A DNA stretch of 64,000 bases from assembly GCA_016234935.1 (NCBI GenBank), contig JACRNL010000015.1, positions 1-64,000 of the forward strand, in the 5' to 3' direction. Below, one piece after another: positions 22,664-58,615 of this stretch; the first letter of the stretch is position 1, and each line of letters starts with the position of its first letter. The stretch is from Deltaproteobacteria bacterium (GTDB lineage: Bacteria; Desulfobacterota; GWC2-55-46). A program made the position numbers and the translations under genes. The notes beneath the pieces were generated by a model. It ran no database searches. It was not told the DNA's origin and was given only the letters and a program-made list of their open reading frames with translations.

Positions 22664-23778
22664 CAGACCTCCACCACGGAATCGTCGCCTATCATCAACC
22701 TCAACGCCTCATGCTTGTGGTGGCATTTAATAACCTTGGCGTTCCTGCCGATGAGACTGTCCTCCAACCGGTTGATATGGCTTATCTCGGCCCCTGACAG
22801 GATGACGCAGTGCTCGATAATGGACTTCTTGATGCTGGTATCGGCCCCGATACTCGTAAACGGGCCGATGAAGCTGTCTTCTATGACCGCGCCGCTGCCT
22901 ATAACTATCGGCCCGCGGAGCGTAGAGTTTCTTACGACCGCCCCTTTTTCCACGGTAACGCGGCCTGTTACGGTGGAAGCCGCATCCACCAAACCGGCTA
23001 TATCCCTCTTGTACCATTCATCGAGCACAATGGTATTTGCGGCAAGAAGGTCGTCTTTTTTACCGGTATCAAGCCACCAGGTGTCGAGGATATGGCTGTG
23101 GACGGATTTGCCGGCGGATACGAGATGCTGAATAGCGTCGGTTATCTCAAGCTCGCCCCTTAAGGAAGGTTTTATTTTGGATATGGCCCTGTGTATCTCG
23201 TTTGAAAATACATAGACCCCGACAAGGGCAAGGTTGCTTTCAGGATTTTTGGGCTTTTCTTCAAGCTTCAATATCGCGCCCTTTTCATTGACAGTCGCCA
23301 CACCGAAGGCCGAGGGGTTGTCAACAGGATTAAGCAGTATCACCGCGTCCGCGTCAGTGTCGTTGAAGGTCTGGATGAACTTCTCGATGCCGCAGCCGAT
23401 AAGATTATCCCCCAGATACATCACGAACGGGTCATCCCCCAGAAACTCTCCGGCCACGACAACGGCATGGGCAAGCCCCTTGGGCTCATCCTGCTGTATG
23501 TAGGTTATGGAGACCCCTTGAAGGGGCTCAGCCCCCCATTTAGAGCCGTCACCGATTGTATTTCTTATCTCCCCGCCCGTCTCAGGGGAGATAATGACCC
23601 CTATTTCCCGTATACCGGCCTTTACGATGTTGTCTATTACATATGACAGTATCGGGCGGTTGGCTATCGGCACAAGCTGCTTGGCCCCTGTGTAGGTAAG
23701 CGGCCGGAGCCTCGTGCCCTTTCCGCCGCTGAGCACAAGCGCCTTCATCTTTTTTTTAGAATCTTTTTTGTTAGACAT
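22663..23778 (-). CDS. Glucose-1-phosphate thymidylyltransferase (long form)
   Basis: MKALVLSGGKGTRLRPLTYTGAKQLVPIANRPILSYVI; contains in-frame palindromic insertion (KWGAEPLQGVSITYI). Confidence 0.92.
   Translation of the reverse strand: MSNKKDSKKKMKALVLSGGKGTRLRPLTYTGAKQLVPIANRPILSYVIDNIVKAGIREIGVIISPETGGEIRNTIGDGSKWGAEPLQGVSITYIQQDEPKGLAHAVVVAGEFLGDDPFVMYLGDNLIGCGIEKFIQTFNDTDADAVILLNPVDNPSAFGVATVNEKGAILKLEEKPKNPESNLALVGVYVFSNEIHRAISKIKPSLRGELEITDAIQHLVSAGKSVHSHILDTWWLDTGKKDDLLAANTIVLDEWYKRDIAGLVDAASTVTGRVTVEKGAVVRNSTLRGPIVIGSGAVIEDSFIGPFTSIGADTSIKKSIIEHCVILSGAEISHINRLEDSLIGRNAKVIKCHHKHEALRLMIGDDSVVEV
23511..23537. repeat. Palindromic family-B repeat inside rmlA-like CDS
   Basis: agaccccttgaaggggctcagcccccc. 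Confidence 0.8.
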
Positions 23779-23896
23779 TTTCGCAGTCCTTGTCTAATTC
23801 ATAGTCCCTGCTTCTCTATATTATCTTAAAAAATTATTCACAAAATTCTTATGTTTATCACATTAAAACCAGCCAACCTGACCTGTCTCACTGCCC

Positions 23897-23919
23897 TATT
23901 GTTCATTAAGTGAACAATA
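23897..23919. promoter_or_regulatory. Perfect 9-bp inverted repeat, candidate operator
   Basis: TATTGTTCA-TTAAG-TGAACAATA in the divergent intergenic region. Confidence 0.5.
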
Positions 23920-24102
23920 ACATAGTCAAAAACTTCCGTCAAGGTTTTTTTGTTTATTTTTACTTACGCGGCCCGCTTTTTTCAGGCTGATGAATTCCTT
24001 GTATTTAAGCATCCCATATATTACATTATTTATTATGAAAATAGCACGAGATACAGGGGAAGAGACTCTGCCGGTGCCGGGTCTGCCTTATAATGGCTGT
24101 CC

Positions 24103-25219: not shown

Positions 25220-25364
25220 CATTTTAAGCCCCCCACCCTGCCCTCCCCCGCAAGGGGGAGGAGAGAAGGAAGGGGTCATCAGCGCGCCCTTAGCGGATTC
25301 CTTTTCCATGTAGAGCCAGCCGCGGTTGAATGCCGGAAGCCAGCCGCGGGCGCGTTCTTTTTTA

Positions 25365-27524
25365 TCAGTTGGCGGCCATCGCCGGCCTGTCCATTTGAAC
25401 TATCCTGCCGCCCTTTTCCTTCATCGGTATCACCTTTCCGGCGGCGCTTCCGGCGCCTGAGGCGCCCGCCACCTTGAACATCTCCACCGTCCCCTTGAGG
25501 CCCGTTGCGAGCTGGGCTATCTCTTCGCTTGCGCGCGCTATCTGCTGGGCGCTCGAAGCGGTATCGGTTATGACGCCCGCCACCGTCTCGATGTCGTGGG
25601 TTATCTGCTCAGTCGCGGCGGACTGCTGTTCCGAGGCCGTCGTTATCTGCTGCATCATCGTGGTGACGACGTCTACCTTCGCGACGATCTCCTTCAATGA
25701 CTCGCCGGCGGCGCTTGCGAGCTTCACTCCGTTTTCAACCGCCTGCACCTCGTAACCGGTGGAGGTTATGGCCTTTTGCGTCTCATCCTGCATGGCCTTT
25801 ATCATGTCGCCTATCTCTTTAGTCGCCTTCATCGTCTTTTCCGCGAGCTTTCTTACCTCATCGGCCACGACCGCGAATCCCCTGCCCTGATCCCCCGCCC
25901 TTGCGGCCTCTATGGCGGCGTTAAGCGCAAGGAGGTTCGTCTGGTCGGCGATGTCGTCAATGACGTTGACTATGTTCCCGATATCCTTGGAGCGGCTGCC
26001 GAGCAGGGATATTATCTCTTTAGACTCCTTTGCCGTCGTCGCTATCCCGTTCATGCTCTCTATGGTCTCGGAAACTATCTTGCCGCCCTTGACGGCAACC
26101 CCGCTTGCCAGACGCGCGGCGTCAGCGGCCTCGGAGACGTTCCTGGCGACCTCTATAAGCGTGGCGCTCATCTCCTGAGAGGCGGTGGACACCTGCGCGG
26201 CCTTGCTGTCCTGCGACTGGCTGCCGCTTGCTATCTGCGTGGCCGAGGCCGAAAGCTCCTCGGAGGAAGACGCCAGCTGGGCAACCGACGCGTGTATATC
26301 CTGTATTATGTCGTTGAACTTATGCATCATCCCGTTGAAGGTGGAGGCCATCTGGCCGCTCTCGTCCTGGCTCTTCACCTCGATATGCAGGGTAAGGTCG
26401 CCGGTCTTTGCTATCTCCGTCATGGTTTTGTTGAGGTAGACCATCGGATTGATGACCTTGTTCTTTATCACCCACAGCGTGACAAGGCCCATCGCGACGA
26501 TGGCCGCCAGCACGCCGACCGCCGCCGACATATTCCACTTCGCGGAGCGCAGGCTCCCGGCCACCTTGGACTCGACCATCTGGCCGACGGCTCCGGAGAC
26601 GTCAACAACGGTGTCTATCGCCTCGCTGCTCTTTTCAATCCATTCACTGCCGGTCATGGGATAATCGCCGGTCGACATCGCCGCGTAGACGGCCTTCCTC
26701 GTGCTGCCGAAGCGCCCCATGAAGACCTCTTCCAATTTCGCAACCGTGCCAAGCACCTTCGGATCAACGCCGTTGCTGTCCTTAAGGCGCAGTATGGGCT
26801 TGAGGTTCATGTCAACGATAGCCCTGTACGTATTCAGATGTTCGACGGCGTCCATGTCCGCGGGCTTCTTCGAGGCGATGAGCCTTGCCACAAGCGCCCT
26901 TTCCCTGCCGGCGTATTCGCTGACGAGCCATATGGCGTTCTTCAATTCAATGTTCATGTGCAGGGCTTCCTGCAGGGTTTGCGTGCTTGCCGTGGAGGCA
27001 AAGGCCGCTATCCTTACCTCCGCATTCGCTTCTATGGATGAAGTGACGGCCTTGACCCATTCCTGCGAAGAATACGTCTTGACCGCGCTGTAAATGTTCG
27101 CGTCCACGGTCTTTCTCGCCGCCTCGAGCCCGGAAAACACCTCATGCGAGCGCTGCAGCGAACTTAAGAGTGCCTTGTTCGTCCCGTCCACTTTGGAAAG
27201 GTCCTCGGCAAGGGCGTATGCCTTTTTAAGGGCTTCGTCGCCCTTTGTTCTCAACTCCTGTATCATCTGCACCGTCTGGCCGTCCGCCGCGGCATTGGAT
27301 GAGAGCGCCATGTTCGTCACCCCGCGCTCCTTGGCCTCGCGTTTGGCGGCCTCAAGTATCTGGTCTGAAAGCTCGTTGGCGATCCCTACGCGAGAGACCT
27401 CCTTGCTGTCCCAGTAAGTGGTCATGACGATGTTAAGCGACAGGGCGGTCAAAACCACTAAAAGCAGACCGACCATGCCCATGAGAAAAGTCTTGATGCT
27501 TATCCGGTTCAGAAAATTATGCAT
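25365..27524 (-). CDS. Methyl-accepting chemotaxis protein (paralogue of 3646-5832)
   Basis: Same architecture and nearly identical signalling domain ([61 protein letters not shown]). Confidence 0.95.
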
Positions 27525-27962: not shown

Positions 27963-29399
27963 ATGGGCAGGCAATTGAAAAAAAACGCGAGACAGGCCGC
28001 GTTTGACATTCTTGGCAGGGTATTTGGCGGCGGGGCATACGCCGACATAATACTTCAAAAGGAGCTTAACGGTTTGACCGTGAAGGACAGGCCCCTTGCC
28101 ACGGAGATAGTCTACGGCATCCTGCGCTGGCAGATCCGCATAGACTTCATCATAGACGCGTTTTCCTCGATAAAAACACGAAAGCTCGAACACGGGGTCT
28201 TGAACTCCATGCGCATCGGCGTGTATCAGCTTCTTTTCCTGTCAGGCGTGCCTTCTTCAGCCGCGGTGAATGAATCGGTCAATCTGATAAAGTCCGGCTC
28301 GAAGGGCGTCACGCCCTCGAAGGGTGCCGCGCCCGGCGCGAAAAAGGCGGGCTTTGTCAACGCCGTCCTGCGCAGGATAGACAGGGAGCGGGAGGCCATC
28401 GTCTTTCCTGACACGAAAACAGACCCGCAAAGGCATATCTCCGTCGTTTACTCCCACCCGGAGTGGATGATAAGGCGCTGGACAGCACGCTACGGGATAG
28501 ACGCCGCGGCCCGGCTTTGCAATGCAAACCAGACCCGCCCCGGCAAGACCGTCAGGGCCAACACCGTCATTATCTCAAGGGATAACCTGATAAAAGCCCT
28601 TGAGGAGGCCGGTTTCAAGGTTCTGAAGACCGTTTTCTCGCCCGACGGCATAGAAGTGACAGAGGCCCCAGCGTCAAAAACGCTCGATCCCGTTGACCCG
28701 CGCTTCTACATTCAAGACGAGGCGTCTCAGCTTATCGCGCGCCTTGTCTGTCCCGAACCCGGTGAAACAGTCCTTGACGCCTGCGCCGCGCCGGGCGGAA
28801 AGACCACGCACATGGCCGCGTTAATGGGAAACAGCGGCATGATATTGGCCATGGACAAATATCCCGGACGCGTTAAAAGCATAATTGAAGCGGCCGGAAG
28901 GCTACAGGCACACATAATAAGGCCGCTAGCAGCTGATGCCGGACGCCCCCTGCCGTTTTCTTCCTCCCCCCTCGCGGGGGTTGAACCCCTTCAAGTGGAG
29001 GGTAGGGTGGGGGTGCGTCTTTTTGACGCCATCCTCCTTGACGCGCCCTGCTCAGGCCTCGGCGTCCTCGGAAGGTCGCCGGACATAAAGATAAAACGTA
29101 AAGAGGCGGACATCGCCGCGCTCTCAAAAACGCAACAGGCCGTTATCGCGAACCTTTCTTCATACGTCAGAAAGGGAGGCCGCATGGTCTACTCTGTCTG
29201 CACCCTAGAGCCTGAAGAAACGGACGAAGTCATAAGCGCCTTTTTAAAGACCCACCCTGACTTCTCCCTTGAAAACGCCTCTATAATCCTGCCGCCTTCG
29301 TGCGCGCCGCTCGTTGATAAAGACGGTTTTTTAAGAACCATGCCGCACCTGCACAACATGGACGGTTTTTTCGCGGCGCGGCTGAAAAGGGGTGGGTAG
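27963..29399 (+). CDS. rsmB: 16S rRNA (cytosine-C5)-methyltransferase, NusB plus SAM domains
   Basis: ARQAAFDILGRVF; VLDACAAPGGKTTHMAAL; LLDAPCSGLGVLGRSPDIK; VYSVCTLEPEE; carries two repeat-derived insertions. Confidence 0.92.
   Translation: MGRQLKKNARQAAFDILGRVFGGGAYADIILQKELNGLTVKDRPLATEIVYGILRWQIRIDFIIDAFSSIKTRKLEHGVLNSMRIGVYQLLFLSGVPSSAAVNESVNLIKSGSKGVTPSKGAAPGAKKAGFVNAVLRRIDREREAIVFPDTKTDPQRHISVVYSHPEWMIRRWTARYGIDAAARLCNANQTRPGKTVRANTVIISRDNLIKALEEAGFKVLKTVFSPDGIEVTEAPASKTLDPVDPRFYIQDEASQLIARLVCPEPGETVLDACAAPGGKTTHMAALMGNSGMILAMDKYPGRVKSIIEAAGRLQAHIIRPLAADAGRPLPFSSSPLAGVEPLQVEGRVGVRLFDAILLDAPCSGLGVLGRSPDIKIKRKEADIAALSKTQQAVIANLSSYVRKGGRMVYSVCTLEPEETDEVISAFLKTHPDFSLENASIILPPSCAPLVDKDGFLRTMPHLHNMDGFFAARLKRGG
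28301..28340. repeat. Family-B palindromic repeat inside rsmB (insertion 1)
   Basis: gaagggcgtcacgccctcgaagggtgccgcgcccggcgcg, encoding KGVTPSKGAAPGA. Confidence 0.8.
28961..29020. repeat. Family B/C palindromic repeat inside rsmB (insertion 2)
   Basis: ttcctcccccctcgcgggggttgaaccccttcaagtggagggtagggtgggggtgcgtct, encoding SSPLAGVEPLQVEGRVGVRL; matches intergenic repeats at 33.9 and 37.1 kb. Confidence 0.85.
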
Positions 29400-29428
29400 G
29401 ATAGATGCCTTGCGTTCACGCGGCAATG

Positions 29429-29482
29429 CCTGCCCTCGCGTGTCCCCCGATAAAAACATTCGAGGGCAGGCTAAAGCGGGGG
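29429..29482. repeat. Family-A dispersed repeat
   Basis: cctgccctcgcgtgtcccccgataaaaacattcgagggcaggctaaagcggggg; near-identical copy at 35377-35430. Confidence 0.85.
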
Positions 29483-29677
29483 AGGCGGATGGATGGCAGG
29501 TTGTCTGCAAATGAAAGCGGTTGGCAAAGGCTCTGCCGGCGCTGCAGGACGCGGAGCGTGGGAATGATAACAATATATTATAAGGGTCATTCCCGAGGAC
29601 TTTTATCGGGCATCCGGTAGGGGCATCGAAGCATCCGGAGGGGCATCAAAGCATCTAATTTCGGCAAAACGACATAT

Positions 29678-29730
29678 CCCCGATAAAGACCCCCGATAGA
29701 AACATTCGAGGGCAGGCTATTCGGGGATGA
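29678..29730. repeat. Family-A dispersed repeat (compound copy)
   Basis: ccccgataaagacccccgatagaaacattcgagggcaggctattcggggatga. Confidence 0.75.
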
Positions 29731-30093: not shown

Positions 30094-31659
30094 TTAAAAC
30101 AGCGGCTCGCCGGTCATGTCGCCGGGTTTGGGAATGCCCATGAGCTTTAAGACCGTTGGGGCTATGTCCTGAAGGCCGCCGCCTTTTTTAAGGGGACGCC
30201 CCTTCAGTTCGTCGTCGATGATGACAAGCGGCACGGGGTTTGTGGTGTGCGCCGTATACGGAGAGTATGTCTGCAAGTCCGTCATCTGCTCGACGTTGCC
30301 GTGGTCAGATGTAATTATCACCTTCCAGCCTTTTATCATGGCCGCCGAGGCGACCCTGCCGACGGCCTTGTCAACGGCCTCGCAGGCCTTTATCGCGGCG
30401 TCCATCACGCCGGTGTGGCCGACCATGTCCCCGTTGGCGAAGTTCATGAGCATGAAGGAGTGCCTGTCTTCAAATATCCGCTCCACCGCCGCTTCGGCTA
30501 TCTCAGCGGCCCTCATTTCCGGCTTTTTGTCGTATGTCGGAACGTCCTTGACGGACTGGATGAGGAACCTGTCCTCCCCTTTAAACGGCACCTCGATGCC
30601 GCCGTTAAAGAAAAACGTCACGTGCGCGTACTTCTCGGTTTCAGATACCCTGAACTGCCGGGCGTTGTTCCTGCTCAGCACCTCGCCGAGGATGTTTTTT
30701 ATGGATTGCGGCGCAAAGACCACCGGCAGGCCGAAATCGGCGTCGTATTGCGTCATGCAGACAAAGCCGGCGAGCTTCAGGCAGGCCGCCCTTTCAAACC
30801 CGGCAAAGGCCCTGTCCGTGAATACGTGCGTCAACTCCCTTGCCCTGTCGGCCCGGAAGTTGAAAAAAAAGACGGCGTCGCCGTCCGCTGCCTTTGCCGC
30901 CGGTCTGCCGGAGCCGGTTATTACCGTCGGTAGGACAAACTCATCCGTTTCGCCCCGGCCATACGCGCTTTCAACGGCCTCTGCGGCCCCCCTAGCCTCC
31001 ACGCCGCTGCCAAGGGTAATGGCCTCGTAAGCGAGCCTCACCCTGTCCCAGCGTTTGTCCCTGTCCATGGCGTAGTAGCGTCCCGACACCGTCGCGACAG
31101 CCCCTGTGCCGGTCTTCTTGAGAAATGCGTCAAGCGCCTTGATGTAGCCAAGGCCGCTCTCTGGAGGCGTATCCCTGCCGTCAAGGAAGGCATGGACAAA
31201 GACCTTGCTTAGACCCTTGAAGGGTGTCACACCCTTTTCCTTGAAGGCCTCAAGCAGGGCATAGAGGTGTTCGATGTGGCTGTGGACGCCGCCGTCAGAG
31301 ACAAGGCCCATGAGGTGAAGCGCGCCGCCAGTGCCTTTGACCTTTTTAACGATATCGTCTATAACCGGATTTTTTAAAAATTCCTTATCCTTAACGGCCC
31401 TGTTAATGCGCGTCAGCTCCTGATAGACGACCCTGCCCGCGCCCATCGTAAGATGCCCCACCTCGGAGTTGCCCATCTGCCCCTCCGGCAGCCCCACCGC
31501 AAGGCCGGAGCAGTCAAGGGCGGTGTGCGGATATTCTTTGAAAATCCGTGAAATGTTCGGCATGACGGCCTGCGCCTCGGCGTTGCCCTCGCTATGCGGG
31601 TTTATGCCCCAGCCGTCAAGTATTATCAGACAGACTTTGTTCATCGGTGCGGTTGTCAT
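30094..31659 (-). CDS. gpmI: 2,3-bisphosphoglycerate-independent phosphoglycerate mutase
   Basis: LIILDGWGINPHSEGNA; MGNSEVGHLTMGAGRVVYQELTRI; VHAFLDGRDTPP; SDHGNVEQM. Confidence 0.96.
   Translation of the reverse strand: MTTAPMNKVCLIILDGWGINPHSEGNAEAQAVMPNISRIFKEYPHTALDCSGLAVGLPEGQMGNSEVGHLTMGAGRVVYQELTRINRAVKDKEFLKNPVIDDIVKKVKGTGGALHLMGLVSDGGVHSHIEHLYALLEAFKEKGVTPFKGLSKVFVHAFLDGRDTPPESGLGYIKALDAFLKKTGTGAVATVSGRYYAMDRDKRWDRVRLAYEAITLGSGVEARGAAEAVESAYGRGETDEFVLPTVITGSGRPAAKAADGDAVFFFNFRADRARELTHVFTDRAFAGFERAACLKLAGFVCMTQYDADFGLPVVFAPQSIKNILGEVLSRNNARQFRVSETEKYAHVTFFFNGGIEVPFKGEDRFLIQSVKDVPTYDKKPEMRAAEIAEAAVERIFEDRHSFMLMNFANGDMVGHTGVMDAAIKACEAVDKAVGRVASAAMIKGWKVIITSDHGNVEQMTDLQTYSPYTAHTTNPVPLVIIDDELKGRPLKKGGGLQDIAPTVLKLMGIPKPGDMTGEPLF
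31211..31240. repeat. Family-B palindromic repeat inside gpmI
   Basis: agacccttgaagggtgtcacacccttttcc, encoding EKGVTPFKGLS. Confidence 0.8.
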
Positions 31660-33044: not shown

Positions 33045-33094
33045 GGTGAATGTCTCCTTTAAGTTGAACCCCCTCAGGGGGATGTTTTACGCAT

Positions 33095-33901: not shown

Positions 33902-33954
33902 AGGTCGATGACCACTTCCTTATCTCCTCCCCCTTGACGGGGGAGGGCAGGGTG
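33902..33954 (+). repeat. 53-bp perfect direct repeat, copy 1
   Basis: aggtcgatgaccacttccttatctcctcccccttgacgggggagggcagggtg. Confidence 0.95.
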
Positions 33955-34088
33955 GGGGGTGAAAGTTGCCCCTTGAAGGGGCTGATCCCTCTCAGGAGGC
34001 TGAACCCCCCTCACCCTACCCTCTCCCGCGAGGGGAGAGGGGAAAAAAGGATTTAAAAATTACGCAATATGGCACAGTCTAACATACA

Positions 34089-34141
34089 AGGTCGATGACC
34101 ACTTCCTTATCTCCTCCCCCTTGACGGGGGAGGGCAGGGTG
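34089..34141 (+). repeat. 53-bp perfect direct repeat, copy 2
   Basis: Identical to 33902-33954. Confidence 0.95.
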
Positions 34142-34154
34142 AGGGGTGTAAAAA

Positions 34155-35357: not shown

Positions 35358-35376
35358 TGCGCAGTCAATAAACCAG

Positions 35377-35430
35377 CTTGCCCTCGCGTGTCCCCCGATA
35401 GAAACATTCGAGGGCAGGCTAAAGCGGAGG
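35377..35430. repeat. Family-A dispersed repeat
   Basis: cttgccctcgcgtgtcccccgatagaaacattcgagggcaggctaaagcggagg. Confidence 0.85.
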
Positions 35431-35443
35431 ACGGAGAACTCAA

Positions 35444-36968: not shown

Positions 36969-37084
36969 GTTGGTCGTCATCCCCGAATGTTTCTATCCCC
37001 GACACAAGCACTCGTGGACGGATATGATTTTAGATTCCCGATTAAGACCTTGTATGTTAGACTCTGCCATATTACGTAAATTTT

Positions 37085-37230
37085 TAAATCCTTTTTTCTC
37101 CTCTCCCCTCGCGGGAGAGGGTAGGGTGAGGGGGGCTCAGCCCCTTCAAGGGGCTTTTTTCACCCCCACCCTGCCCTCCCCCGCTTAAAACGCGCGAGGG
37201 TTGAACCCTTTCAAAGGGCGGGAATGACAA
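37085..37230. repeat. Intergenic cluster of family B/C palindromic repeats
   Basis: ctctcccctcgcgggagagggtagggtgaggggggctcagccccttcaaggggc...cccccaccctgccctcccccgcttaaaacgcgcgagggttgaaccctttcaaagggcggg. Confidence 0.85.
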
Positions 37231-39654: not shown

Positions 39655-41022
39655 ATGGCACAGTACGACTGCATCATAGCCGGGGCCGGCCCGGCCGGGA
39701 TATTTGCGGCCCTTGAACTGGCCCTGAACTCGGGAAAAAAAGGGTTGAACCCCTTCAAGGGGCTGAAAATCCTCCTCATAGAAAAGGGCAAGGACATAAA
39801 CGAAAGGAGCAGAAAGGACATCTTCTGCGGCTGGGGCGGCGCGGGGGCATATAGCGACGGGAAGCTCAACCTCTCAAGGGATATCGGCGGCTCCTTAAAC
39901 GAATACGTTGGAGCAGAGGAGCTTGACGAACTTATCGCCTGCGCGGACTCCATTTTTCTCAAATACGGCGTGACCTCCGGCGTAAAGGGCGCGGACAGGG
40001 CCCTTGCCGCCCCCCTTGAGGACGGCGCGGCAAGGGCGGGTCTGAAGCTCATGACCTTCCCCATAAGACACATAGGCACGGACAGATGCGTTTTATTTCT
40101 GAAACAGATGCGAGACGCCCTAAGCGGGCGGATAGAAACGCTCTTTGGCGCCGAGGCCGCCGAGGTCATGCATGACAGCGGCAAGGTCACGGGGATAAGG
40201 ACAACAGACGGCCGGGAACACCGCGCGGACTTCGTTATCCTGTGCCCCGGAAGGGCAGGGTCGAACTGGCTCCAAGGCGTCGCCAGGGCGCTTTCCATCA
40301 GCACGACGGTCAACCCCGTTGACATAGGCGTGCGCGTGGAGGTTCCGGCTCAAGCGCTTCGCTTCGCCACCGACGTCCTTCATGAGGCAAAGCTCATCTA
40401 CAACTCCAAAAGGTTTGACGACCCCGTGAGGACGTTTTGCATGAACCCTTACGGCGTGGTCGTGCGGGAACAGAGCGACGGATTTTCCACTGTGAACGGG
40501 CACAGCTTCTCCGTAAAAAAATCGGAGAACACGAACTTCGCCCTGCTCGTGAGCACCACCTTCACGGAGCCGTTCCATGAGGCGAACGCCTACGGCGAAT
40601 ACATAGCGCGCCTTGCCAACCTCCTTGGAGAAGGCATCATTGTCCAGCGTCTCGGCGACCTTCAGCGCGGCAGGCGCTCTACCGCGGAGAGGATAAAAAA
40701 TAATCCCGTAAGGCCGTCCCTTAAAGACGCCGCGCCGGGTGACCTTTCCTTCGCGCTGCCATACCGCTACCTCACGGACATAAGCGAGATGATTGAAGCC
40801 CTTGACAGGTTCGCGCCGGGCATTAATTCCCCCTCGACGCTCCTTTACGGCGCGGAGGTGAAGTTTTATTCCATGCGGCTGAAGCTGACAAACAGGCTTG
40901 AGACGCCGGTAAAAAACCTTTTTGCCGCCGGCGACGGAGCGGGAGTGACAAGAGGCATAATACAGGCGTCGGTCTCCGGCATAATCGCCGCGCGCGAGAT
41001 ATTAAGACGCATGGCTCATTAG
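39655..41022 (+). CDS. FAD-dependent dehydrogenase (COG2509-like)
   Basis: CIIAGAGPAGIFAALELA; FCGWGGAGAYSDGKLNLS; FAAGDGAGVTRGIIQASVSGIIAAREI; in-frame insertion KKGLNPFKGLK. Confidence 0.87.
   Translation: MAQYDCIIAGAGPAGIFAALELALNSGKKGLNPFKGLKILLIEKGKDINERSRKDIFCGWGGAGAYSDGKLNLSRDIGGSLNEYVGAEELDELIACADSIFLKYGVTSGVKGADRALAAPLEDGAARAGLKLMTFPIRHIGTDRCVLFLKQMRDALSGRIETLFGAEAAEVMHDSGKVTGIRTTDGREHRADFVILCPGRAGSNWLQGVARALSISTTVNPVDIGVRVEVPAQALRFATDVLHEAKLIYNSKRFDDPVRTFCMNPYGVVVREQSDGFSTVNGHSFSVKKSENTNFALLVSTTFTEPFHEANAYGEYIARLANLLGEGIIVQRLGDLQRGRRSTAERIKNNPVRPSLKDAAPGDLSFALPYRYLTDISEMIEALDRFAPGINSPSTLLYGAEVKFYSMRLKLTNRLETPVKNLFAAGDGAGVTRGIIQASVSGIIAAREILRRMAH
39741..39764. repeat. Family-B palindromic repeat inside FAD-dehydrogenase CDS
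   Basis: agggttgaaccccttcaaggggct. Confidence 0.82.
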
Positions 41023-41041: not shown

Positions 41042-41830
41042 ATGCAAACAAGAAAAAATCCAACCGAAGAAGCGCCGCGCGATGAAAAGACAAAAAACAT
41101 ATCCATCGTGCTCGCCGGGCCGCAGAGCGCAGGCAACGTGGGAAGCGTCGCAAGGGCGATGATGAACACCGGGCTTTCAAGGCTCGTCCTCATAAACCCG
41201 TGCGCATACAGGAACAACGAAGGCTTTTCCATGGCCTGCAACGCCGCGCCCATGCTCCTTGACGCGCCGGAGTTTGGGACGCTCAGGGACGCCGCCAAAG
41301 GCAGCGCCCTCGTGGCCGGGGCCACAAGAAGGCTCGGCAAGATACGATACCCCGTGCTGACCCTCGCGGAGGCTGTGCCGAGAATTCTGGAGATGAGCCG
41401 GCTGAGCGATGTTTCCATCGTCTTCGGGAGAGAGGATAAGGGGCTTATGAACGATGAGATAGCCGAGTGCGACCTGCTCTTTGAAATACCCACGCACCCG
41501 GCATATCCGTCATTAAACCTTTCGCACGCGGTCTTCATCACCTGCCACGCCATCTTTATGGCCGGCGATTACAAAGGCAAAGGCCCCGCCATACAGGCGG
41601 CCCCGCGCGCGGAGGTCGAAAAGATGTACGCCCACATGGAACGGGCCTTCATGGCGCTTGATTACGGAGAAAAGGGCGGCCAGGGCCTGCTCAAAACCAT
41701 ACTGAGAAGTTTCAAACGGCTCTTTGGCAGGACAGGACTAATGCCGAGAGAGGTGAACATGCTCAGGGGAATATTCACCCAGATAGAGGCGCGGGGGTTG
41801 AACCCCTTCAAAGTGAAAAAAAAAGGTTGA
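41042..41830 (+). CDS. TrmJ/SpoU-family tRNA/rRNA methyltransferase
   Basis: ISIVLAGPQSAGNVGSVARAMMNTGLSRLVLINPCAY; IVFGREDKGLMNDEIAECDLLFEIPTHPAYPSLNLSHAV. Confidence 0.92.
   Translation: MQTRKNPTEEAPRDEKTKNISIVLAGPQSAGNVGSVARAMMNTGLSRLVLINPCAYRNNEGFSMACNAAPMLLDAPEFGTLRDAAKGSALVAGATRRLGKIRYPVLTLAEAVPRILEMSRLSDVSIVFGREDKGLMNDEIAECDLLFEIPTHPAYPSLNLSHAVFITCHAIFMAGDYKGKGPAIQAAPRAEVEKMYAHMERAFMALDYGEKGGQGLLKTILRSFKRLFGRTGLMPREVNMLRGIFTQIEARGLNPFKVKKKG
41791..41816. repeat. Family-B repeat forming the C-terminus of TrmJ-like CDS
   Basis: gcgggggttgaaccccttcaaagtga, encoding RGLNPFKVKKKG*. Confidence 0.7.
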
Positions 41831-42019: not shown

Positions 42020-44377
42020 ATGCCTGCAAGAATCCGGCAACTCCAAGTCCCCGCAGGCCCCCCGATAGAAACATTCGAGGGCAAGCTTAAGCGGGGGGCG
42101 CTGCTTTTCATCCTGACATTTTTCCTCTTCGCCTGCGCCGCGAATAAAGAGGCCGCCCAAAAAGAAGGCGCGGCCGCGCCGGCCGCCGCGGACTATCCCA
42201 AGACCATGGCTGTCCTGCCGTTCGGAAACGACACGGACGAAATAGGCATCTCCGGGCAGGTGCGAAAGAGCTTTTTCAACCACATAAGCTCAAAGCCGTT
42301 CCAGAGCATACGGATGTCGGTCGTTGACGAGAAGGTCGCCACGCTGGAAAAGGCCGGCATAAAGACCATATTCGACGCGGCGCCAAAGGATATCGGCGAG
42401 GCCACCGGCGCCGACGGGATCATCTACGGCCGCGTGACGGACTTTAAGAAGGTCTACGCCGTGGCCTATTCGCAGATGGGCGTCGAGGCGGAGGTCTGGA
42501 TGGTGGACGCCAGGACAGGCAAGGAGCTATGGCGCTACAAAGAGGCCGTCCGCTACCACGAGGGCGGGGCGTCTTTGTCGCCGATCGGCATTGTCATGAC
42601 GGCGGTATCAACGGCCATGAACCTGCGCGAGATACAGCAGGTGCGCGTCGTCAATGAATTAGGCTGGAAGCTTTCCGAGAAAATACCGGTGCCGGAAGGC
42701 CTCAAGTTCGAGGAAAAGCCGCGCATCAAGAACGTCATCTCCAACGCAAAGGAAGGCCCCTTCGGCAAAGGCAAGATAGTCAAAGTGGGCATGGAGGGCG
42801 AGAAGGGGCTGGTCGGGCTTTTCGAGATAGGCGGCTTTAAAAAGGCCGTTCCCATGAAGGAGGTCTCCGCGGGGGAGTACCTCGGAGAGTATCTCGCCGT
42901 GCCGGGCGACAATATCAAAGAATCGCCGATAACGGTCTACCTCAAACGCCCCACAGGGGAGGAAGCGCAGTGGCAGGACATAACCGGCTTCGTTACGATA
43001 GACACTACGCCGCCTTTGCCCGTTGCGGATATTAAAGGCAGGACGTTCCTTGACCGGGTGGAGCTGACGTGGAAGGAAGCCGGGGCCCCTGACCTGAAGG
43101 GGTATAAGATTATGCGCAGTAAAAAGCCGCTTTCTGATTACGAGGAGGCCGGATTTACCGAGGAGGCACGCTTTACCGACAAGAAGGCCGCGCAAAAGGA
43201 GGTCTACTACTACCGGGTGGCTCCGGTAGACGCGGCCGGCAACATCGGAGACACGGCGGAGACCGTTAAGCTGAGCCTGCGCGAGAGCGAGATACAGGAG
43301 CTTCCCGCGAGGATAAGCTCCGACATGACCCTTTTTCCCGGGGCATACCTCGTGAAAAACGAAACCGTTGTCGACGCCGGCGTGACGCTCACCGCGCAGC
43401 CGGACACGAAGATATATTTTGAAAAGGGCGCGTCTCTCAAGGTGTCGGGCGCGCTGCTGGCAAAGGGTGAAAAAGACCTGTGGATAGAGTTCCTTCCCAA
43501 AACGCCGGAAGAGCGGTTTGGCGGCATATACCTTTCAGGCAATGAAAGCGCCTTCAAATACGCGAGGATCAGAGGCGCGCAAAACGCCATTTCCATAAAG
43601 GACGCCGCCGTGACCATTGCAAGCTCCGTCATGGAATACAGCGGCGCGGGTATCGTTGCCGAGGGCGTCCCGTCGCCCGCCATATCAGACAGCACGGTCT
43701 GGCACAATGACACCGGCATAAGGCTTTCCAGCTCAAAGGCCTCCGCCCTGCGCAGCGAGATAACGCAGAACAAGACGGGACTCGAGCTTGTGGATTCCAC
43801 GCCGGAGCTGATTGAAAACAACATATACGCAAACGGCGTCAACGTGGATAAAAAGGGCGGGGCCGTCAGCCTTGACAAAAACTACCTCGGCTCCATAAAC
43901 ACGGACGAGATGCGGATAAAGGGCGGCGCCTTGATAACAAAGGCGCTTGACGCGCCCTACCCCGCAGGCAAGGCGGTTGACGTGATAGTAAACCCCTATG
44001 CGTCAATGTCTCCGGAAGAAAAGAAGGTAAAATTAGCGGAGCTTCTTGTGGCCGGAGGCAGGTACTTCAAGGACAGGAACTTCGGCAAGGCCGCCTCGAC
44101 CTTCGAGGAGGTTTTGAAGATAGAAGAAGGCGCGACGACCTATTATTATCTGGCACTCACATACCAGGGCATGGATGACAACGAAAAGGCCCTGTCATAC
44201 CTGAAAAAGGGTTTTGAGAAGTATCCAATGGACTCAACCCTCGCTAAATCCTACGGCCTTTTGCTCTACCAGATGAACAGGGAAGAGCCAGCGAAAGCCG
44301 CCCTCAGGGAGGCCCTCAGACTCAACCCCGGCGACAGGCAGGTAAAGTTCATACTTGAACGGCTTGAAGCCAAATAA
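42020..44377 (+). CDS. Lipoprotein: GNA1162/DUF799-like domain, FN3-like, right-handed beta-helix, TPR
   Basis: LLFILTFFLFAC lipobox; YPKTMAVLPFGNDTDEIG..; parallel beta-helix (SSVMEYSGAGIVAEG); TPR (YYYLALTYQGMDDNEKALSYLKKGFEKYP). Start uncertain (ORF opens at 41882). Confidence 0.75.
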   Translation: MPARIRQLQVPAGPPIETFEGKLKRGALLFILTFFLFACAANKEAAQKEGAAAPAAADYPKTMAVLPFGNDTDEIGISGQVRKSFFNHISSKPFQSIRMSVVDEKVATLEKAGIKTIFDAAPKDIGEATGADGIIYGRVTDFKKVYAVAYSQMGVEAEVWMVDARTGKELWRYKEAVRYHEGGASLSPIGIVMTAVSTAMNLREIQQVRVVNELGWKLSEKIPVPEGLKFEEKPRIKNVISNAKEGPFGKGKIVKVGMEGEKGLVGLFEIGGFKKAVPMKEVSAGEYLGEYLAVPGDNIKESPITVYLKRPTGEEAQWQDITGFVTIDTTPPLPVADIKGRTFLDRVELTWKEAGAPDLKGYKIMRSKKPLSDYEEAGFTEEARFTDKKAAQKEVYYYRVAPVDAAGNIGDTAETVKLSLRESEIQELPARISSDMTLFPGAYLVKNETVVDAGVTLTAQPDTKIYFEKGASLKVSGALLAKGEKDLWIEFLPKTPEERFGGIYLSGNESAFKYARIRGAQNAISIKDAAVTIASSVMEYSGAGIVAEGVPSPAISDSTVWHNDTGIRLSSSKASALRSEITQNKTGLELVDSTPELIENNIYANGVNVDKKGGAVSLDKNYLGSINTDEMRIKGGALITKALDAPYPAGKAVDVIVNPYASMSPEEKKVKLAELLVAGGRYFKDRNFGKAASTFEEVLKIEEGATTYYYLALTYQGMDDNEKALSYLKKGFEKYPMDSTLAKSYGLLLYQMNREEPAKAALREALRLNPGDRQVKFILERLEAK
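42049..42098. repeat. Family-A repeat overlapping lipoprotein signal-peptide coding region
   Basis: ccccgcaggccccccgatagaaacattcgagggcaagcttaagcgggggg. Confidence 0.8.
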
Positions 44378-44681: not shown

Positions 44682-44861
44682 GGCAATCTACCTCCTTTTC
44701 AGTATTTGAAGAACAACGGAGGTCATGTCATCCAGAACAACCGCAACGCCAAGACGTTGCGATCGGTACAACAAACACTCACGTAGCCTCATTAAGTTAT
44801 ATTCGCACACATTTACTTTAAGGTCAAGCATTTTTTTAACCTAAGGCAAAAATACCCGCCC

Positions 44862-44903
44862 CCTGAGGGGGTCACCCCTTGAAGGGGGTCACCCCCCTTG
44901 CGC
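44862..44903. repeat. Intergenic family-B palindromic repeat
   Basis: ccccctgagggggtcaccccttgaagggggtcacccccc. Confidence 0.85.
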
Positions 44904-45120: not shown

Positions 45121-47340
45121 GTGACGTCTGCATCCCGGTCAAGGGCCACAATCCCCTTCTTAGTCTTTTTCCTCTCCGGTTTTTGCGGTCTCCTGTATCA
45201 GATAGTCTGGCTAAGGCTCGCCTTCCGCGCCTTTGGGGTGATAACGCCCGTCCTGTCCGTGGTAATAGCCGTCTTCATGCTCGGCCTGGCCGTCGGCGCA
45301 TGGGCCGGAGGGCGCTGGATACACTCCCTGAGCGAAAGGACGCGGGTATCCCCGGCCTACTACTACGCCATGGCCGAGCTTGTTATCGGCATAGGCGCAT
45401 TTGCGGTGCCGGCGCTGTTTTCCCTTTCCGAATCATATCTTCTGACCTTCGGCGAGATGAGTTCCGCCGGGTATCTGGCCGTGTCGGCCATGCTTATCGG
45501 GCTCAGCATCCTCCCGTGGAGCATCTGCATGGGCCTTACCTTTCCATTCATGATGGCCTTCCTGAAGGGCACGGACAGGTCTGACACGACGGGCTTCAGC
45601 TACCTGTATCTCGCCAACGTGATAGGCGCCATGTGCGGCGCCGCCGTCACCGCCTTCGCGCTTATCGAGATATTCGGCTTTGAGAAGACCCTTTGGCTGG
45701 CCGGGGCGATAAACCTTGCCATCGCCGCGCTCGGCATATCGCTCGACAAATCGTGCCCGTATCCGTTCGGAGCGGATTATCCTGAAAAAAGCAGGGAGGA
45801 GCCGAACCCCCTCAGGGGGCGGTCTCCCGCCGGAACGAAGCCGCAGGAAAGCCCGCTGCTCCTTGGCGTCATACTCTTTGTAACGGGCTTTGCCACGACG
45901 GCGCTTGAGGTCGTGTGGACAAGGGCCTTCACGCCGGTGCTGACGACGACCGTCTACGCCTTTGCCTTTCTTATCACGGCATACCTGCTGGCCACGTGGA
46001 TAGGGTCTTGGTTTTACAGGAGAGACTTGAGACTTGGCCGCGTTCGCTCAAACGGGACCCTTTTCGCGCTTCTTGCCGTATCCGCCTTTTTACCCGTGAT
46101 CATAAACGACCCTCGCGTAAACTACGGCAAATTACCCCTGCTTTTCAGCATAATGCCTTTTTCAGCCATCCTCGGATATCTGACGCCGAGGATAATAGAC
46201 CAGTTTTCAGACGGCTATCCAAAAGGCGCCGGAATGGCCTACGCCGTCAACATAATCGGCTGCATACTCGGGCCGCTGGCGGCGTCATACCTGCTGCTGC
46301 CCGCGATAGGCTCGAAATCGGCCATGGCGCTGCTGGCGCTGCCATTCCTTTTATTCTTTTTCATCTATTGGATGCCCCTTGCCGGCATGCCCGCGTTCAG
46401 GGCCGTTGCCGGAGCCGCCGCAGCCGCGGCCTTGATAGTCTCCTTTGCCGTTAACATCGGCTACGAAGACCGCCTGGGGGCATTTGACTTCTCAAAAGAC
46501 GCGGTCATCCGGCGCGACCATACGGCTACGATCATATCTTACGGTAAAGACTTTAATAAAAGACTTTTTGTCAACGGCGTAGGGATAACGCGCCTTACCC
46601 CGATTACAAAAATGATGGCCCACTGGCCCCTTTCGCACCTCAAGCAGCCGCCAAAATCAGCCCTCGTTATCTGCTTCGGCATGGGCACCACCTTCCGCTC
46701 TCTCATGAGCTGGCCGGACTTGAAGGTAACGGCCGTAGAGCTTGTGCCGAGCGTAAGGGACGCCTTTGGCTACTACTTCGCGGACGCCGGCGAAACAATG
46801 AAAAAACCCAACGGCAGGGTAATAATAGACGACGGCAGGCGTTTTCTGAAAAGGACCGTCGAGAAGTTCGACGTGATCACCATTGACCCGCCTCCGCCGG
46901 TGCAGGCGGCAGGTTCGAGCTTTCTTTATTCGCGGGACTTCTATGATATCGTGAAGATGCGGTTAAATGACGGCGGCATCCTCCAGCAGTGGATACCCAT
47001 CGGCGGCGACACCCTCGACAATAAAGCCATCATCCGCGCCCTTACCGACGCCTTTCCGCACGTCAAGGCGTATTCTTCGGTGGAGGGTTGGGGAATGCAC
47101 TTCCTCGCCTCCATGCAGCCCATTGATTCCCCGCCCGTTGAGACCCTTTTATCGAGGCTCCCTCTCCGGGCAAGAGAAGATATGATGGAATGGCACGCTA
47201 ACAAACAGCCGATAGAACTGATGAAGACGATGCTGCGCTTCACGGTGGACGCGGCTACTCTCGTCACCGAAGACGACGTCATGATCACGGACGATCAGCC
47301 GGTCAACGAATACTTCATCCTGAGGAGAATTTTGCTTTAG
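45121..47340 (+). CDS. Membrane-embedded spermidine synthase-like protein
   Basis: FFLSGFCGLLYQIVWLRLAFRAFG; C-terminal Rossmann domain KVTAVELVPSVRDAFGYYFAD..RVIIDDGRRFLKRT..FDVITIDPPPPV. Confidence 0.88.
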   Translation: MTSASRSRATIPFLVFFLSGFCGLLYQIVWLRLAFRAFGVITPVLSVVIAVFMLGLAVGAWAGGRWIHSLSERTRVSPAYYYAMAELVIGIGAFAVPALFSLSESYLLTFGEMSSAGYLAVSAMLIGLSILPWSICMGLTFPFMMAFLKGTDRSDTTGFSYLYLANVIGAMCGAAVTAFALIEIFGFEKTLWLAGAINLAIAALGISLDKSCPYPFGADYPEKSREEPNPLRGRSPAGTKPQESPLLLGVILFVTGFATTALEVVWTRAFTPVLTTTVYAFAFLITAYLLATWIGSWFYRRDLRLGRVRSNGTLFALLAVSAFLPVIINDPRVNYGKLPLLFSIMPFSAILGYLTPRIIDQFSDGYPKGAGMAYAVNIIGCILGPLAASYLLLPAIGSKSAMALLALPFLLFFFIYWMPLAGMPAFRAVAGAAAAAALIVSFAVNIGYEDRLGAFDFSKDAVIRRDHTATIISYGKDFNKRLFVNGVGITRLTPITKMMAHWPLSHLKQPPKSALVICFGMGTTFRSLMSWPDLKVTAVELVPSVRDAFGYYFADAGETMKKPNGRVIIDDGRRFLKRTVEKFDVITIDPPPPVQAAGSSFLYSRDFYDIVKMRLNDGGILQQWIPIGGDTLDNKAIIRALTDAFPHVKAYSSVEGWGMHFLASMQPIDSPPVETLLSRLPLRAREDMMEWHANKQPIELMKTMLRFTVDAATLVTEDDVMITDDQPVNEYFILRRILL
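45801..45832. repeat. Family-B palindromic repeat inside membrane spermidine-synthase-like CDS
   Basis: gccgaaccccctcagggggcggtctcccgccg, encoding EPNPLRGRSPAG. Confidence 0.7.
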
Positions 47341-50519: not shown

Positions 50520-51668
50520 GTGAACCACACCTTAAACAAAATCGCCGCGTCAGCCGCCGTATTCTTCGTGTTGGCCGCTCCCGCAAAGGCCGCAAGTCCG
50601 CCGGCATTATGCAAGGTCGCGCTTGACTCCCTCGGCTCCAGCTCCGGCGCGCCCGGAGACAGCTTCGAGATGCTCGGCGTCTGGGAAGATACTCAAGGCG
50701 CAAAGACTGCAAGCATCAACAAAGGCAGCGGGCGCCTTCTCGAGGTGCTTTCCTGGAGCGCGTCCGTCATCAAGGTAAGGATACCCGGCGATCTCTCACC
50801 CGGTATTTACAAGGTCGGCGTTTATTGCAACAACCCTCCGCACTGGCAGGGAAGCGGCTTTAAGGACTTCACGGTGACGGCAAAGGCCGGCGACAGGCAT
50901 AGCCCGGCAAGCCAGCCCCTTGAAGGGGTTGAACCCCCTGAGGGGGTTCAACCCCGGCCTTCTGCCCCAGCCGCATTGCCGCCGCAAAGCGCCGCACTAA
51001 CCGCGCCTGAAGTCCAGCAGACGCAACCGGCGCAAACCGGCACGGGAGGCCAAATACAGATACAACTGCGCGAAGTCACGGAAAAGCAAACGCCGCCCGC
51101 GCCGGAGCAGTCCGGAACCGGCGGCGTAAAGAAACAGGACAAACTCGGCCTGTGGATGCTTGCCGTCATCTTCGCGGCTGTGATTGTCTTTATTATCCGT
51201 AAGAGAAGCGTTGTCCGTGCCGCGAATTACCAACAGGCCGCCGGACTTCCGGAAGAAAAACCTGACGTAGTAAAAACAAAGGCCCGGATAGCTGCCGGCA
51301 GGAATTTGCCAAAGGCCTTTACAGGCGAGTATAAAGGCGTTGCTTACAGCGCCGAAACGCTCGGCTTCAACCCCGATAAAGACGACCCTTCGGCCTTCGG
51401 CACGCCTTGCGTGACGGTCTCCATTGACGCGCCCAAACCCCTTTCAAGAGAGCTTGAGGTCAACGCCCGCAAAACAAGACCCGCGGTCAGCGGCGACAGG
51501 GCCGCGCACATTGACGCCCTTCTGGACATGGGCGCCGACTACATAGACGTCGGTTTCAATACAACATGGGTGGCTGCGGAAGTGCCCGCAACAAAGGCCG
51601 TTGTCGACAGGGCGCTGGCGGAGAGGATCGTTGAACGGCTTATAAAACTGCGCGAACTTTCCGCGTAA
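50520..51668 (+). CDS. Secreted/membrane IPT-TIG-like protein with C-terminal TM and unknown domain
   Basis: GTG start after the sigma54 activator; signal peptide; YKVGVYCNNPPHWQGSGFKDFTV; GLWMLAVIFAAVIVFII TM segment. Confidence 0.65.
   Translation: MNHTLNKIAASAAVFFVLAAPAKAASPPALCKVALDSLGSSSGAPGDSFEMLGVWEDTQGAKTASINKGSGRLLEVLSWSASVIKVRIPGDLSPGIYKVGVYCNNPPHWQGSGFKDFTVTAKAGDRHSPASQPLEGVEPPEGVQPRPSAPAALPPQSAALTAPEVQQTQPAQTGTGGQIQIQLREVTEKQTPPAPEQSGTGGVKKQDKLGLWMLAVIFAAVIVFIIRKRSVVRAANYQQAAGLPEEKPDVVKTKARIAAGRNLPKAFTGEYKGVAYSAETLGFNPDKDDPSAFGTPCVTVSIDAPKPLSRELEVNARKTRPAVSGDRAAHIDALLDMGADYIDVGFNTTWVAAEVPATKAVVDRALAERIVERLIKLRELSA
50913..50956. repeat. Family-B double palindrome inside IPT-TIG-like CDS
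   Basis: cagccccttgaaggggttgaaccccctgagggggttcaacccc; contains 23-bp palindrome TTGAACCCCCTGAGGGGGTTCAA. Confidence 0.88.
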
Positions 51669-56536: not shown

Positions 56537-56563
56537 GAGCCTTTCCTGTTATCCTTACGCACA

Positions 56564-56741
56564 GCAGGGTGCTGAAAAACTAATATACTCGTGCAGGCTG
56601 CTCAAAAAGCCTCCGACCCATGCTCCGCATGGGTACCCCGAAGGCGTCGAGGAGTGAGGAATGAGACGTAGGTATCACTACGCCGTTCGTTCCGAACGAC
56701 GAAGGCAACGCAGTAGATGAGGCGCTTGAGGCAGCCTGTTA
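56564..56741. mobile_element. MITE-like family-D element, copy 2
   Basis: cagggtgctgaaaaac...gtcgaggagtgaggaatgagacgta..tacgccgttcgttccgaacgacgaaggcaacgc...gcagcctgtta. Confidence 0.72.
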
Positions 56742-57893
56742 TCCTTTAAATACTATAGCCGGTTCAAGCTTCATTACCTTTCTTATGCTTATCAGCGCGG
56801 AGAAGATGCATATCACGGTCACGCCCGTTCCGCTGAGAACAAGGAGCTGCCATGGGAATTTAAAGGCAAGGACGCTGTCGCGCAGCAGGTATCCGAAAAG
56901 AGACGCCGCGCCTACGCCGAGGCCGTATCCCACGCTGCCGACCATCAGGGCTTGCAGCAGTATCATCTTAAGAAGCTGGCCGTTGGTGGTGCCCATCGCC
57001 TTGAGCACCCCGAACTGTCTGAGATTGTCGAGGGTAAAATTATAGAATGTCTGTCCTGCCGTAGCCGCGCCTATGATGAAGCCCAGCAAGACCGACATGC
57101 CGAAGTTTATGGGTATGCCGGTATATTTCAGGTAGTATCCTATGGTAACGGACTTGAACTCATCGCTTGTATAGGCTGTAAGGCCGGTTATCTTCGTTAT
57201 CCGTTTTGTCAGCTCCTGGCGGTCGGCGCCTTCCTTTGCCTTGACCAATATAAATGAAAGCAGCTTCCTTTCACGGGGGGCAAAACTTGTCGCGCGCGAA
57301 TACGTCGTGTATATCACGGGCTGGGACTGAAATGTCCGCGAGGTCCTGGCTATCCCGACGACTGTCGCGCGTTTGTCGTTAAGCTCAAGGGTGTCGCCTA
57401 CTTTAAGCGGGATGACCTTGCCGCCGGGCAGCCTTTTCGCGAGCTTTGAGGCCGCCCCGTCGAGGTCTACGATTACGCTGTCGCTTCTTCTGAGGTCTTC
57501 GAGCTTGCCCGCTATCATTACGGCCGGGCCGCCTATAAGGGTCGCGTCGTCAAGGCCTATGACGTTGCATGTCTGGAAGTTGCCGTTTTCAAGCCGCGCC
57601 TTTAAAAGGCCCTTGTAAAGCGGCACCGCCCACTCAACGCCCTCCACCCCGCGCACGCGGTAAAGCTCGGTGTCCTGGATGGGTTTGGTGTCGTCAATGA
57701 ACTGAACCTTCGGGTCCATGACCCAGATGTCGGGCTGGCTGAGGTCGGTTATAAAACTGAATGTGCGGGCCATGATGCCCACGAAGATGGCGGGCTGCTG
57801 CGTCATTATGAAAGACGCGAAGGTAAGACCCATGACGATGCCGATATATTTGCTCCTGTCGCCAGTGAGCATTTTAAGCGCCGTGTAATACAT
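56739..57893 (-). CDS. FtsX-like (DevC/MacB-type) ABC transporter permease
   Basis: YYTALKMLTGDRSKYIGIVMGLTFASFI; GFIIGAATAGQTFYNFTLDNLRQFGVLKAMGTTNGQLLKMILLQAL. Confidence 0.9.
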   Translation of the reverse strand: MYYTALKMLTGDRSKYIGIVMGLTFASFIMTQQPAIFVGIMARTFSFITDLSQPDIWVMDPKVQFIDDTKPIQDTELYRVRGVEGVEWAVPLYKGLLKARLENGNFQTCNVIGLDDATLIGGPAVMIAGKLEDLRRSDSVIVDLDGAASKLAKRLPGGKVIPLKVGDTLELNDKRATVVGIARTSRTFQSQPVIYTTYSRATSFAPRERKLLSFILVKAKEGADRQELTKRITKITGLTAYTSDEFKSVTIGYYLKYTGIPINFGMSVLLGFIIGAATAGQTFYNFTLDNLRQFGVLKAMGTTNGQLLKMILLQALMVGSVGYGLGVGAASLFGYLLRDSVLAFKFPWQLLVLSGTGVTVICIFSALISIRKVMKLEPAIVFKG

Positions 57894-57895
57894 GG

Positions 57896-58615
57896 CTATT
57901 TGGCTCCATCGAAGGGCGTCACACCCTCAAAGGGCGTCACGCCCTTTTTATTCAGAGGCATATGTTTGAGCGCGGCAAGGGAGAACCGGATTATATGAGA
58001 GGCCGTCTGCCCGGCGCCGTCCGCGCCGCAGTTTATTTCGGGCTTGAGCCTGGCTATGACCGCGCTTGCGTGGCTGTAAAAAAGGCACTGTCCTATTATG
58101 CTGAAGACAGAGCGGGCTATTTCCTCGTCGCTGAACTTTCCGCCCATTATTTCCCTTACGGCCTCGGTCAAAAAGACGTTGCGCGGCCTTATCGTCCGCT
58201 CCACCATGCGCTTTAACGCCACCGTCGGCTCGACCATCTCCCTTGCCATGAGCTTGCCGTGCCATGACGCCCTGCCCTTATCCAAAAAACCCTGCATAAA
58301 GCTCAGGATAAAACCCTCAAGCCTCTTTTCCGGCGGTTCGTCCTTTGAAGCCGCATACGGGTACTTCCTCGCCGCCTCATTATGCGCGGACTCCAGCACC
58401 TGTAAATACAGCTCCTCCTTGCTCCCAAAGTGGTAATTAATGGCCGCCACGTTGACATCAGCCCTCCGGCAGATCTCCCTGACCGTGGCCGCGTGAAACC
58501 CGAATTCGGCAAAGACCTCTCCTGCCGTAGAAAGAAGGCTTTTGCGCGTATCCTCGCTGAAAGATTTTATGTTGACTGACGTCTGCATGCTCATAATAAA
58601 AAACCTGCGATTCAA
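57896..58615 (-). CDS. TetR/AcrR-family transcriptional regulator
   Basis: TRKSLLSTAGEVFAEFGFHAATVREICRRADVNVAAINYHFGSKEELYLQVLE. Confidence 0.94.
   Translation of the reverse strand: MNRRFFIMSMQTSVNIKSFSEDTRKSLLSTAGEVFAEFGFHAATVREICRRADVNVAAINYHFGSKEELYLQVLESAHNEAARKYPYAASKDEPPEKRLEGFILSFMQGFLDKGRASWHGKLMAREMVEPTVALKRMVERTIRPRNVFLTEAVREIMGGKFSDEEIARSVFSIIGQCLFYSHASAVIARLKPEINCGADGAGQTASHIIRFSLAALKHMPLNKKGVTPFEGVTPFDGAK
57911..57948. repeat. Family-B repeat forming the TetR C-terminal tail
   Basis: gaagggcgtcacaccctcaaagggcgtcacgcccttttt, encoding NKKGVTPFEGVTPFDGAK*. Confidence 0.85.

Follow-up and report, generated by a model that had tools for sequence, protein, structure and literature searches.

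Palindromes within protein-coding sequence are a curiosity, described mainly in Rickettsia and Wolbachia, and the Rickettsia palindromic elements (RPEs) come from host-dependent Alphaproteobacteria. Here we describe a far shorter palindromic repeat in a Deltaproteobacteria bacterium (assembly GCA_016234935.1), found in a stretch of 64,000 nucleotides, positions 1 to 64,000 of contig JACRNL010000015.1, which we call the window. The assembled genome measures 2.15 Mb and is split into 15 contigs, and the window belongs to one of them. The original prediction, made from the letters of the window, was of a proliferating short palindrome that adds peptide segments to conserved enzymes. Our analysis supports it, the element being apparently mobile and taking the form of arrays with an 18-bp spacing.

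RPEs and the Wolbachia palindromic elements are selfish palindromes inserted in frame into a wide range of genes, unrelated to one another and mostly conserved, and also into intergenic DNA (PMC3767692, PMC10969869). RPEs are ~100-150 bp long (PMC3767692), and their sites are common to many Rickettsia species. The arrays are like RPEs in being a palindromic repeat found in frame in unrelated protein genes, and the comparison with RPEs drawn in the original prediction, as a shorter element of different sequence, is apt. Here, however, the arrays add 18 or 36 bp, their sequence seems unrelated to that of RPEs, and no relative has an insert at the tested sites, the relatives here being other genera. 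Repetitive extragenic palindromes (REPs) of the GTAG and CGTC families are 20-40 bp palindromes in high copy, sometimes in open reading frames (PMC3733652). The arrays share the shortness, the high copy number and the presence of copies inside reading frames, but they differ in having no GTAG or CGTC foot, no Y1/RAYT gene found in the genome, about half of the copies in genes, a strict 18-bp quantum and alternating C4 and G4.

The GC clusters of yeast mitochondria (GC42) are very short GC-rich palindromes that proliferate, merge and shuffle with no known transposase (PMC4478555), and other ultra-short fungal elements, those of Podospora, are cited in PMC7218506. The arrays are likewise very short and palindromic with no known transposase, whereas the GC clusters are ~42 nt of other sequence, lie in organelle DNA, use AG target nucleotides and are mainly non-coding. 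In PARCELs, palindromic DNA lies behind repeated peptide segments (PMC2996958); these are longer tandem repeat domains, often in membrane or surface proteins, whereas here we see single or double hexapeptides in unrelated enzymes. Because the length, the shared sites, the transposase and the foot all depart from those families, we class the element neither as an RPE nor as a REP. No account of it was found in the literature searched, subscription journals being outside its coverage.

Architecture, copy number and distribution

The motif reported in the original prediction, CCCxTTGAAGGGx and GGGxxTCAxxCCC, is present at all the places named, with the nine coding occurrences and all the intergenic ones confirmed in the sequence. 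It was taken for a single palindrome but makes up half a period of an array whose blocks alternate and whose spacing is 18 bp. Arrays were scanned with a cyclic 18-column profile and counted at a score of at least 20, and the statistics below come from 809 kb, or 38% of this one genome. With the sites displayed in register, the architecture is one of alternating 9-bp blocks, CCCC-YTSAR-GGGG-YTSAR-CCCC, and an array is its own reverse complement after a 9-bp shift. The five-base word is almost always one of four palindromes (TTGAA, TTCAA, CTGAG or CTCAG), with complementary bases at its two ends in 251 of 302 words vs 138 expected. Array lengths range over 13-62 nt in a scan of contig C5 plus the window. 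Both ends of an array are a tetrad, and odd tetrad numbers prevail: 48 arrays have three tetrads, 30 have five and 2 have seven, against 6 with two, 16 with four and 2 with six (P=3e-8). Therefore, the typical array length is 4+18n.

There is further order along the array. The word type, TTSAA or CTSAG, alternates at a two-word distance (47 different vs 12 same, P=5e-6), the base flanking single-unit arrays obeys the same alternation rule (P=1.7e-4 and 1e-3), and the middle base runs G then C in 103 cases vs 30. The true period may be 36 bp, in which case a single unit would be a window onto it. The alternation and the G-then-C polarity can be read as a means of avoiding unstable perfect long palindromes and direct repeats. 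Two variants accompany the main form. Copies reading GGGxGTCACxCCC, which had been counted with the motif, do exist in GpmI, the first RsmB insert and the TetR tail, but they represent a variant with GTSAC as its middle word (GGGNGTSACNCCC), with 16 copies in the 809 kb and 2 in a 1.2-Mb sample of a relative. A CCCT/AGGG variant, GGGTTGAACCCTTTCAAAGGGC, has 10 copies in the 809 kb here and 0 in the relative G004.

The repeat is far more abundant than chance allows. In the 64-kb window, CCCNTTGAAGGG with up to one mismatch has 20 matches vs 1.7 expected; genome-wide, CCCNTTSAAGGG has 176 and 187 matches on the two strands, and its reversed control has 0. The profile scan gives 153 arrays, so by extrapolation the whole genome should hold about 400. 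Contig C5 alone has 94, where a Markov shuffle has 3 and the reversed sequence 1. Among the genomes searched, the amplification is confined to this one. A degenerate 22-mer has 277 copies here and 0 in 394 other genomes of the phylum, and among 84,980 species genomes the exact 22-mer has one match elsewhere, a single intergenic array in an AT-rich endomicrobial bin. Relatives in the family have about 3-20 CCCNTTSAAGGG matches each, near background, and 800 kb of G004 holds 9 weak arrays of the background type. We also considered a wider family in the class and rejected it: the 12-mer excess of G051 is the intergenic hairpin CCCTCCCCTTGAAGGGGAGGG, and that of G050 looks like background. Carriage by phage was rejected on finding no match in viral contigs.

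Genes were called with a purpose-built dicodon gene caller (695 genes, 85% coding), and at least one array occurs in 64 of the 695. Of the arrays, 73 lie wholly within genes, 74 are intergenic and 6 fall at edges. The density is 0.615/kb in intergenic DNA vs 0.106/kb in genes, a difference of about six-fold which purifying selection explains most simply; if most genic hits are purged, the lower genic density is as expected. A motif density in coding sequence equal to that given by local composition would have told against the original prediction, and this is not what we find: genes contain 74 arrays vs 3-9 in codon-shuffled genes, about 10-fold, and 56 vs 0 at a stricter cut-off. A frame preference is also seen. 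On either strand, one register reads P-L-E-G-V-Q, another P-L-R-G-L-N, and the third contains TGA whenever a G stands in the middle of the word. Among genic arrays the three occur 33:21:1, in favour of the two stop-free ones (P=6e-7). Since the same DNA gives unrelated peptides in two registers and half of the copies are non-coding, the unit is the DNA and not a peptide motif. Genic and intergenic copies are alike in closeness to consensus (medians 0.960 and 0.967, P=0.63), as would be expected if a single process, recent or still under way, had been followed by selection. The positions of arrays within genes are scattered.

Insertions relative to orthologues

Alignment shows the arrays to be insertions relative to orthologues, as the original prediction had expected: the residues are absent from orthologues in other genera of the family and order, and the gaps are of exact length. 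In clean cases, the gain is 18 or 36 bp, that is, 6 or 12 residues. Comparison with 0.8-1.2 Mb of G004 gives six-residue inserts for LipA, a DegT aminotransferase, RibE (two), GpmI and further proteins, and 12-residue inserts for two genes. Most weak matches (score 18-30) show no gain against G004 and are background, yet a gain is seen at that score for LipA, GpmI, the second RibE site and C5_136464.

Individual enzymes illustrate the pattern. The phosphoglycerate mutase gene gpmI (30094..31659, minus strand; PDB 1ejj, E=2.5e-161) carries the insert KGV[TPFKGL]SKVF at 31213..31236, minus strand (coding-strand DNA AAGGGTGTGACACCCTTCAAGGGT), and all 14 relatives listed of 29 matches have an exact six-residue gap there, as does PDB 1ejj. 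RibE (C5:145917-146645) has two separate six-residue inserts, one per protein half, and relatives are without both. The RmlA-type nucleotidyltransferase (22663..23778, minus strand; NCBIfam TIGR01208) has the insert SKWG[AEPLQG]VSITYI, encoded by the array ACCCCTTGAAGGGGCTCAGCCCCC at 23513..23536, minus strand (profile score 36.3; DNA and alignment), and is exactly 6 residues longer than 12 of 12 relatives. RsmB (TIGR00563) has two inserts. The first, the 36-bp GTCAC variant KGVTPSKGAAPG of direct repeat family D8 (28299..28334, plus strand), adds exactly 12 residues that are absent from 12 of 15 relatives; the second, an array within a longer REP-like hairpin, SPLAGVEPLQVEGRVG (28968..28998, plus strand; score 33.6), lies in a variable loop about 14-16 residues longer than in most relatives. 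The same gaps appear against the solved structures of GpmI (PDB 1ejj), RibE (9ryj) and RmlA (4ho0), where they fall between conserved blocks of the alignment.

A likely origin and its rivals

At two sites, the host appears to have supplied one tetrad. The tRNA-Ala(GGC) gene at C5:149796-149891 (L013:9796-9891) begins with GGGGCTG, and this 5' end is the last tetrad of the array C5:149796-149822; G004 has the same tRNA-Ala without the array. RmlA has a Trp-Gly pair that most relatives share; its codons can only read TGGGGN, which forces one GGGG of the array. Since the GGGG of the tRNA-Ala and of RmlA comes from the host, a host G4 tract preceded insertion, at least there. The arrays have the look of insertions, with matching ends, into G4/C4 tracts that were already there. 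We think it likely, though well short of certain, that the element is selfish DNA of a non-autonomous, ultra-short and lineage-specific kind: a palindrome that is copied into GGGG/CCCC tracts already present and that genes tolerate because it comes in steps of six codons. A unit adds 18 bp, a tetrad pair and two palindromic five-base words, to yield C4-X-G4-X-C4. A donor array would be copied into a pre-existing GGGG or CCCC tract, guided by short stretches of microhomology on each side; the simplest route would be template switching, assisted by hairpins, during replication or repair and with no dedicated transposase. As 18 bp is six codons, the frame is kept wherever an insertion lands, and selection would remove only registers with a TGA stop or damaging sites. 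Peptides of the PLEGVQ or PLRGLN type would then be by-products, which loops and the ends of proteins would accommodate. Such donor-templated copying is the best-supported mechanism.

The arrays might instead be made locally, by slippage or fold-back template switching on host sequence with no donor elsewhere. The complementary word ends (the 251 of 302 above) would suit this, as would the ACCC in the middle of the GpmI insert, which matches host-like GGGT flanks. We consider it unlikely, for the same architecture built on tetrads other than C4/G4 is not enriched (53 here vs 50 in G004), which led us to reject a generic fold-back or template-switch origin. Nor do tandem duplication or perfect copying of local flanks fit: long arrays never have two identical units (0 of 34), single-unit arrays offer no 18-bp unit to duplicate, and the flanking base differs from the internal word, an anti-correlation opposite to flank matching. 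A REP-like miniature transposon mobilised by a RAYT/IS200-IS605 Y1 transposase, as for the GTAG REPs, would account for short GC-rich hairpins in high copy, often clustered and interspersed with longer hairpins of REP-like type (CTCCTCCCCC-loop-GGGGGAGGGCAGGGTG). This we hold to be very unlikely. A PF01797 search for the Y1 transposase had no match in this complete genome but was positive in 5 of 14 control genomes, and mobilisation by RAYT was rejected for lack of it; the flanks of exact arrays show a weak AR...YT and no GTAG or CGTC foot; and the other palindromic repeats of the genome are almost all extragenic (25/30, 16/17 and 9/9), an internal contrast to the arrays.

It is similarly improbable that the arrays are a functional DNA signal under selection and tolerated in genes, be it a protein-binding site, a terminator, or a chromosome-organising or recombination site. 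Palindromic words, a conserved sequence and hundreds of copies would be expected of such a signal, but convergent gene pairs have no excess of intergenic copies between them (7 vs 10.4 expected), the orientation is near balanced (151 vs 126), sister genera are entirely without the element, and positions inside genes are scattered. A selected peptide module, PLEGVQ/PLRGLN, serving a protein-level function is scarcely credible: hexapeptides do recur in unrelated proteins, but the peptides from the two registers are different, half of the copies are intergenic, and the host enzymes are unrelated to one another. Loss of the palindrome nuclease SbcD was considered as a special cause and set aside. 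A TIGR00619 search has no match in this genome, but neither has it in most of the relatives searched; therefore, its loss is at best permissive.

Several points weigh against copying of a mobile selfish palindrome. The relatives are other genera of the family and order, the genus being represented by one genome among them, and empty sites are not readable at the DNA level. Mobility is inferred from a single strain, and no mobilising enzyme was identified. For some strong arrays, comparison with G004 gives no clean gain of 18 bp (NusB -1, C1_106694 0, C5_39267 +2, C5_168814 +2). The COG2509 dehydrogenase does carry the motif, as predicted, but its excess is not 6 residues: 7 of 8 relatives are 8 residues shorter and one is 9 shorter. 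The copying model also leaves the two-word alternation and the G-then-C polarity of the words unaccounted for. It may be, and we put this forward tentatively, that the arrays represent a new class of ultra-short selfish element, with whole-codon gain, transposase-free hairpin and microhomology copying into GGGG/CCCC, and hexapeptides in about one-tenth of the proteins. Beyond the original prediction, our analysis adds the 18-bp quantised gain, the internal rules of the arrays, the intergenic location of about half of the copies and the restriction to this genome.

Further copies, neighbouring repeats and significance

The array in the COG2509-like FAD-dependent protein, KKGLNPFKGLK, lies at 39742..39767 on the plus strand (score 39.6). 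The remaining genic arrays of the window were identified by motif only. On the plus strand, these are at the C-terminus of a TrmJ-family methyltransferase (RGLNPFKV, 41793..41811; score 28.5; TIGR00050), in a spermidine-synthase-like membrane protein (EPNPLRGRSP, 45797..45820; score 26.3; PF01564) and in an IPT/TIG-like protein, which has a five-tetrad array, QPLEGVEPPEGVQP (50913..50955; score 65.8), and no family match in NCBIfam- and Pfam-type family searches. On the minus strand, a GTSAC-variant array of direct repeat family D8, GVTPFEGVTPFDG, occupies the C-terminal tail of a TetR/CecR-like regulator (57909..57944; PF09209, PF00440). An ARAGORN call of tRNA-Ser(TGA) at window 50891-50967 overlaps the array in the IPT/TIG gene and is probably a false call caused by the hairpin; Rfam finds a tmRNA alone in the window, and tRNAs in three other stretches. 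Elsewhere, a second array near a tRNA gene lies 1-2 bp past the 3' end of tRNA-Val (C5:86308-86382). The intergenic arrays of the window are at 33063..33081 (score 29.1), 33968..34009 (five tetrads, adjoining REP-like hairpins; score 50.0), 37131..37155 (score 38.1), 37198..37219 (the CCCT/AGGG variant; score 24.4) and 44858..44898 (a double array; scores 22.5 and 30.3).

Other repeats share the window. The REP-like hairpins (25222-25280, 33902-34151 and 37079-37153) often lie beside or around the 18-bp arrays and are a possible source of the CCCCTTGAAGGGG core; the similar G051 hairpin is repeated in that relative. A second dispersed family, CCCCCGATAGAAACATTCGAGGGCAGGC, occurs at 2295-2350, 29428-29483, 29674-29729, 35376-35431 and 42043-42098. 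It has about 30 copies in the 809 kb, 25 of them extragenic. A third, ACGCCGTTCGTTCCGAGCGACGAAG, occurs at 20327-20390 and 56641-56704, with 9 copies in the 809 kb, all extragenic. Neither family is present in the sampled part of G004. The window also holds two similar long genes 21.7 kb apart (3736-5407 and 25467-27138; 728 and 719 codons), whose DNA is 70-75% alike in blocks.

A much shorter and independent case of protein-coding palindromes in another bacterial lineage, with its length fixed to six codons, implies that such invasions recur. It suggests a simple rule by which DNA parasites may enter genes harmlessly. The many inserts in conserved enzymes also serve as a natural experiment that shows which places in a protein tolerate six additional residues, and the arrays as one on how a sequence with no transposase multiplies.

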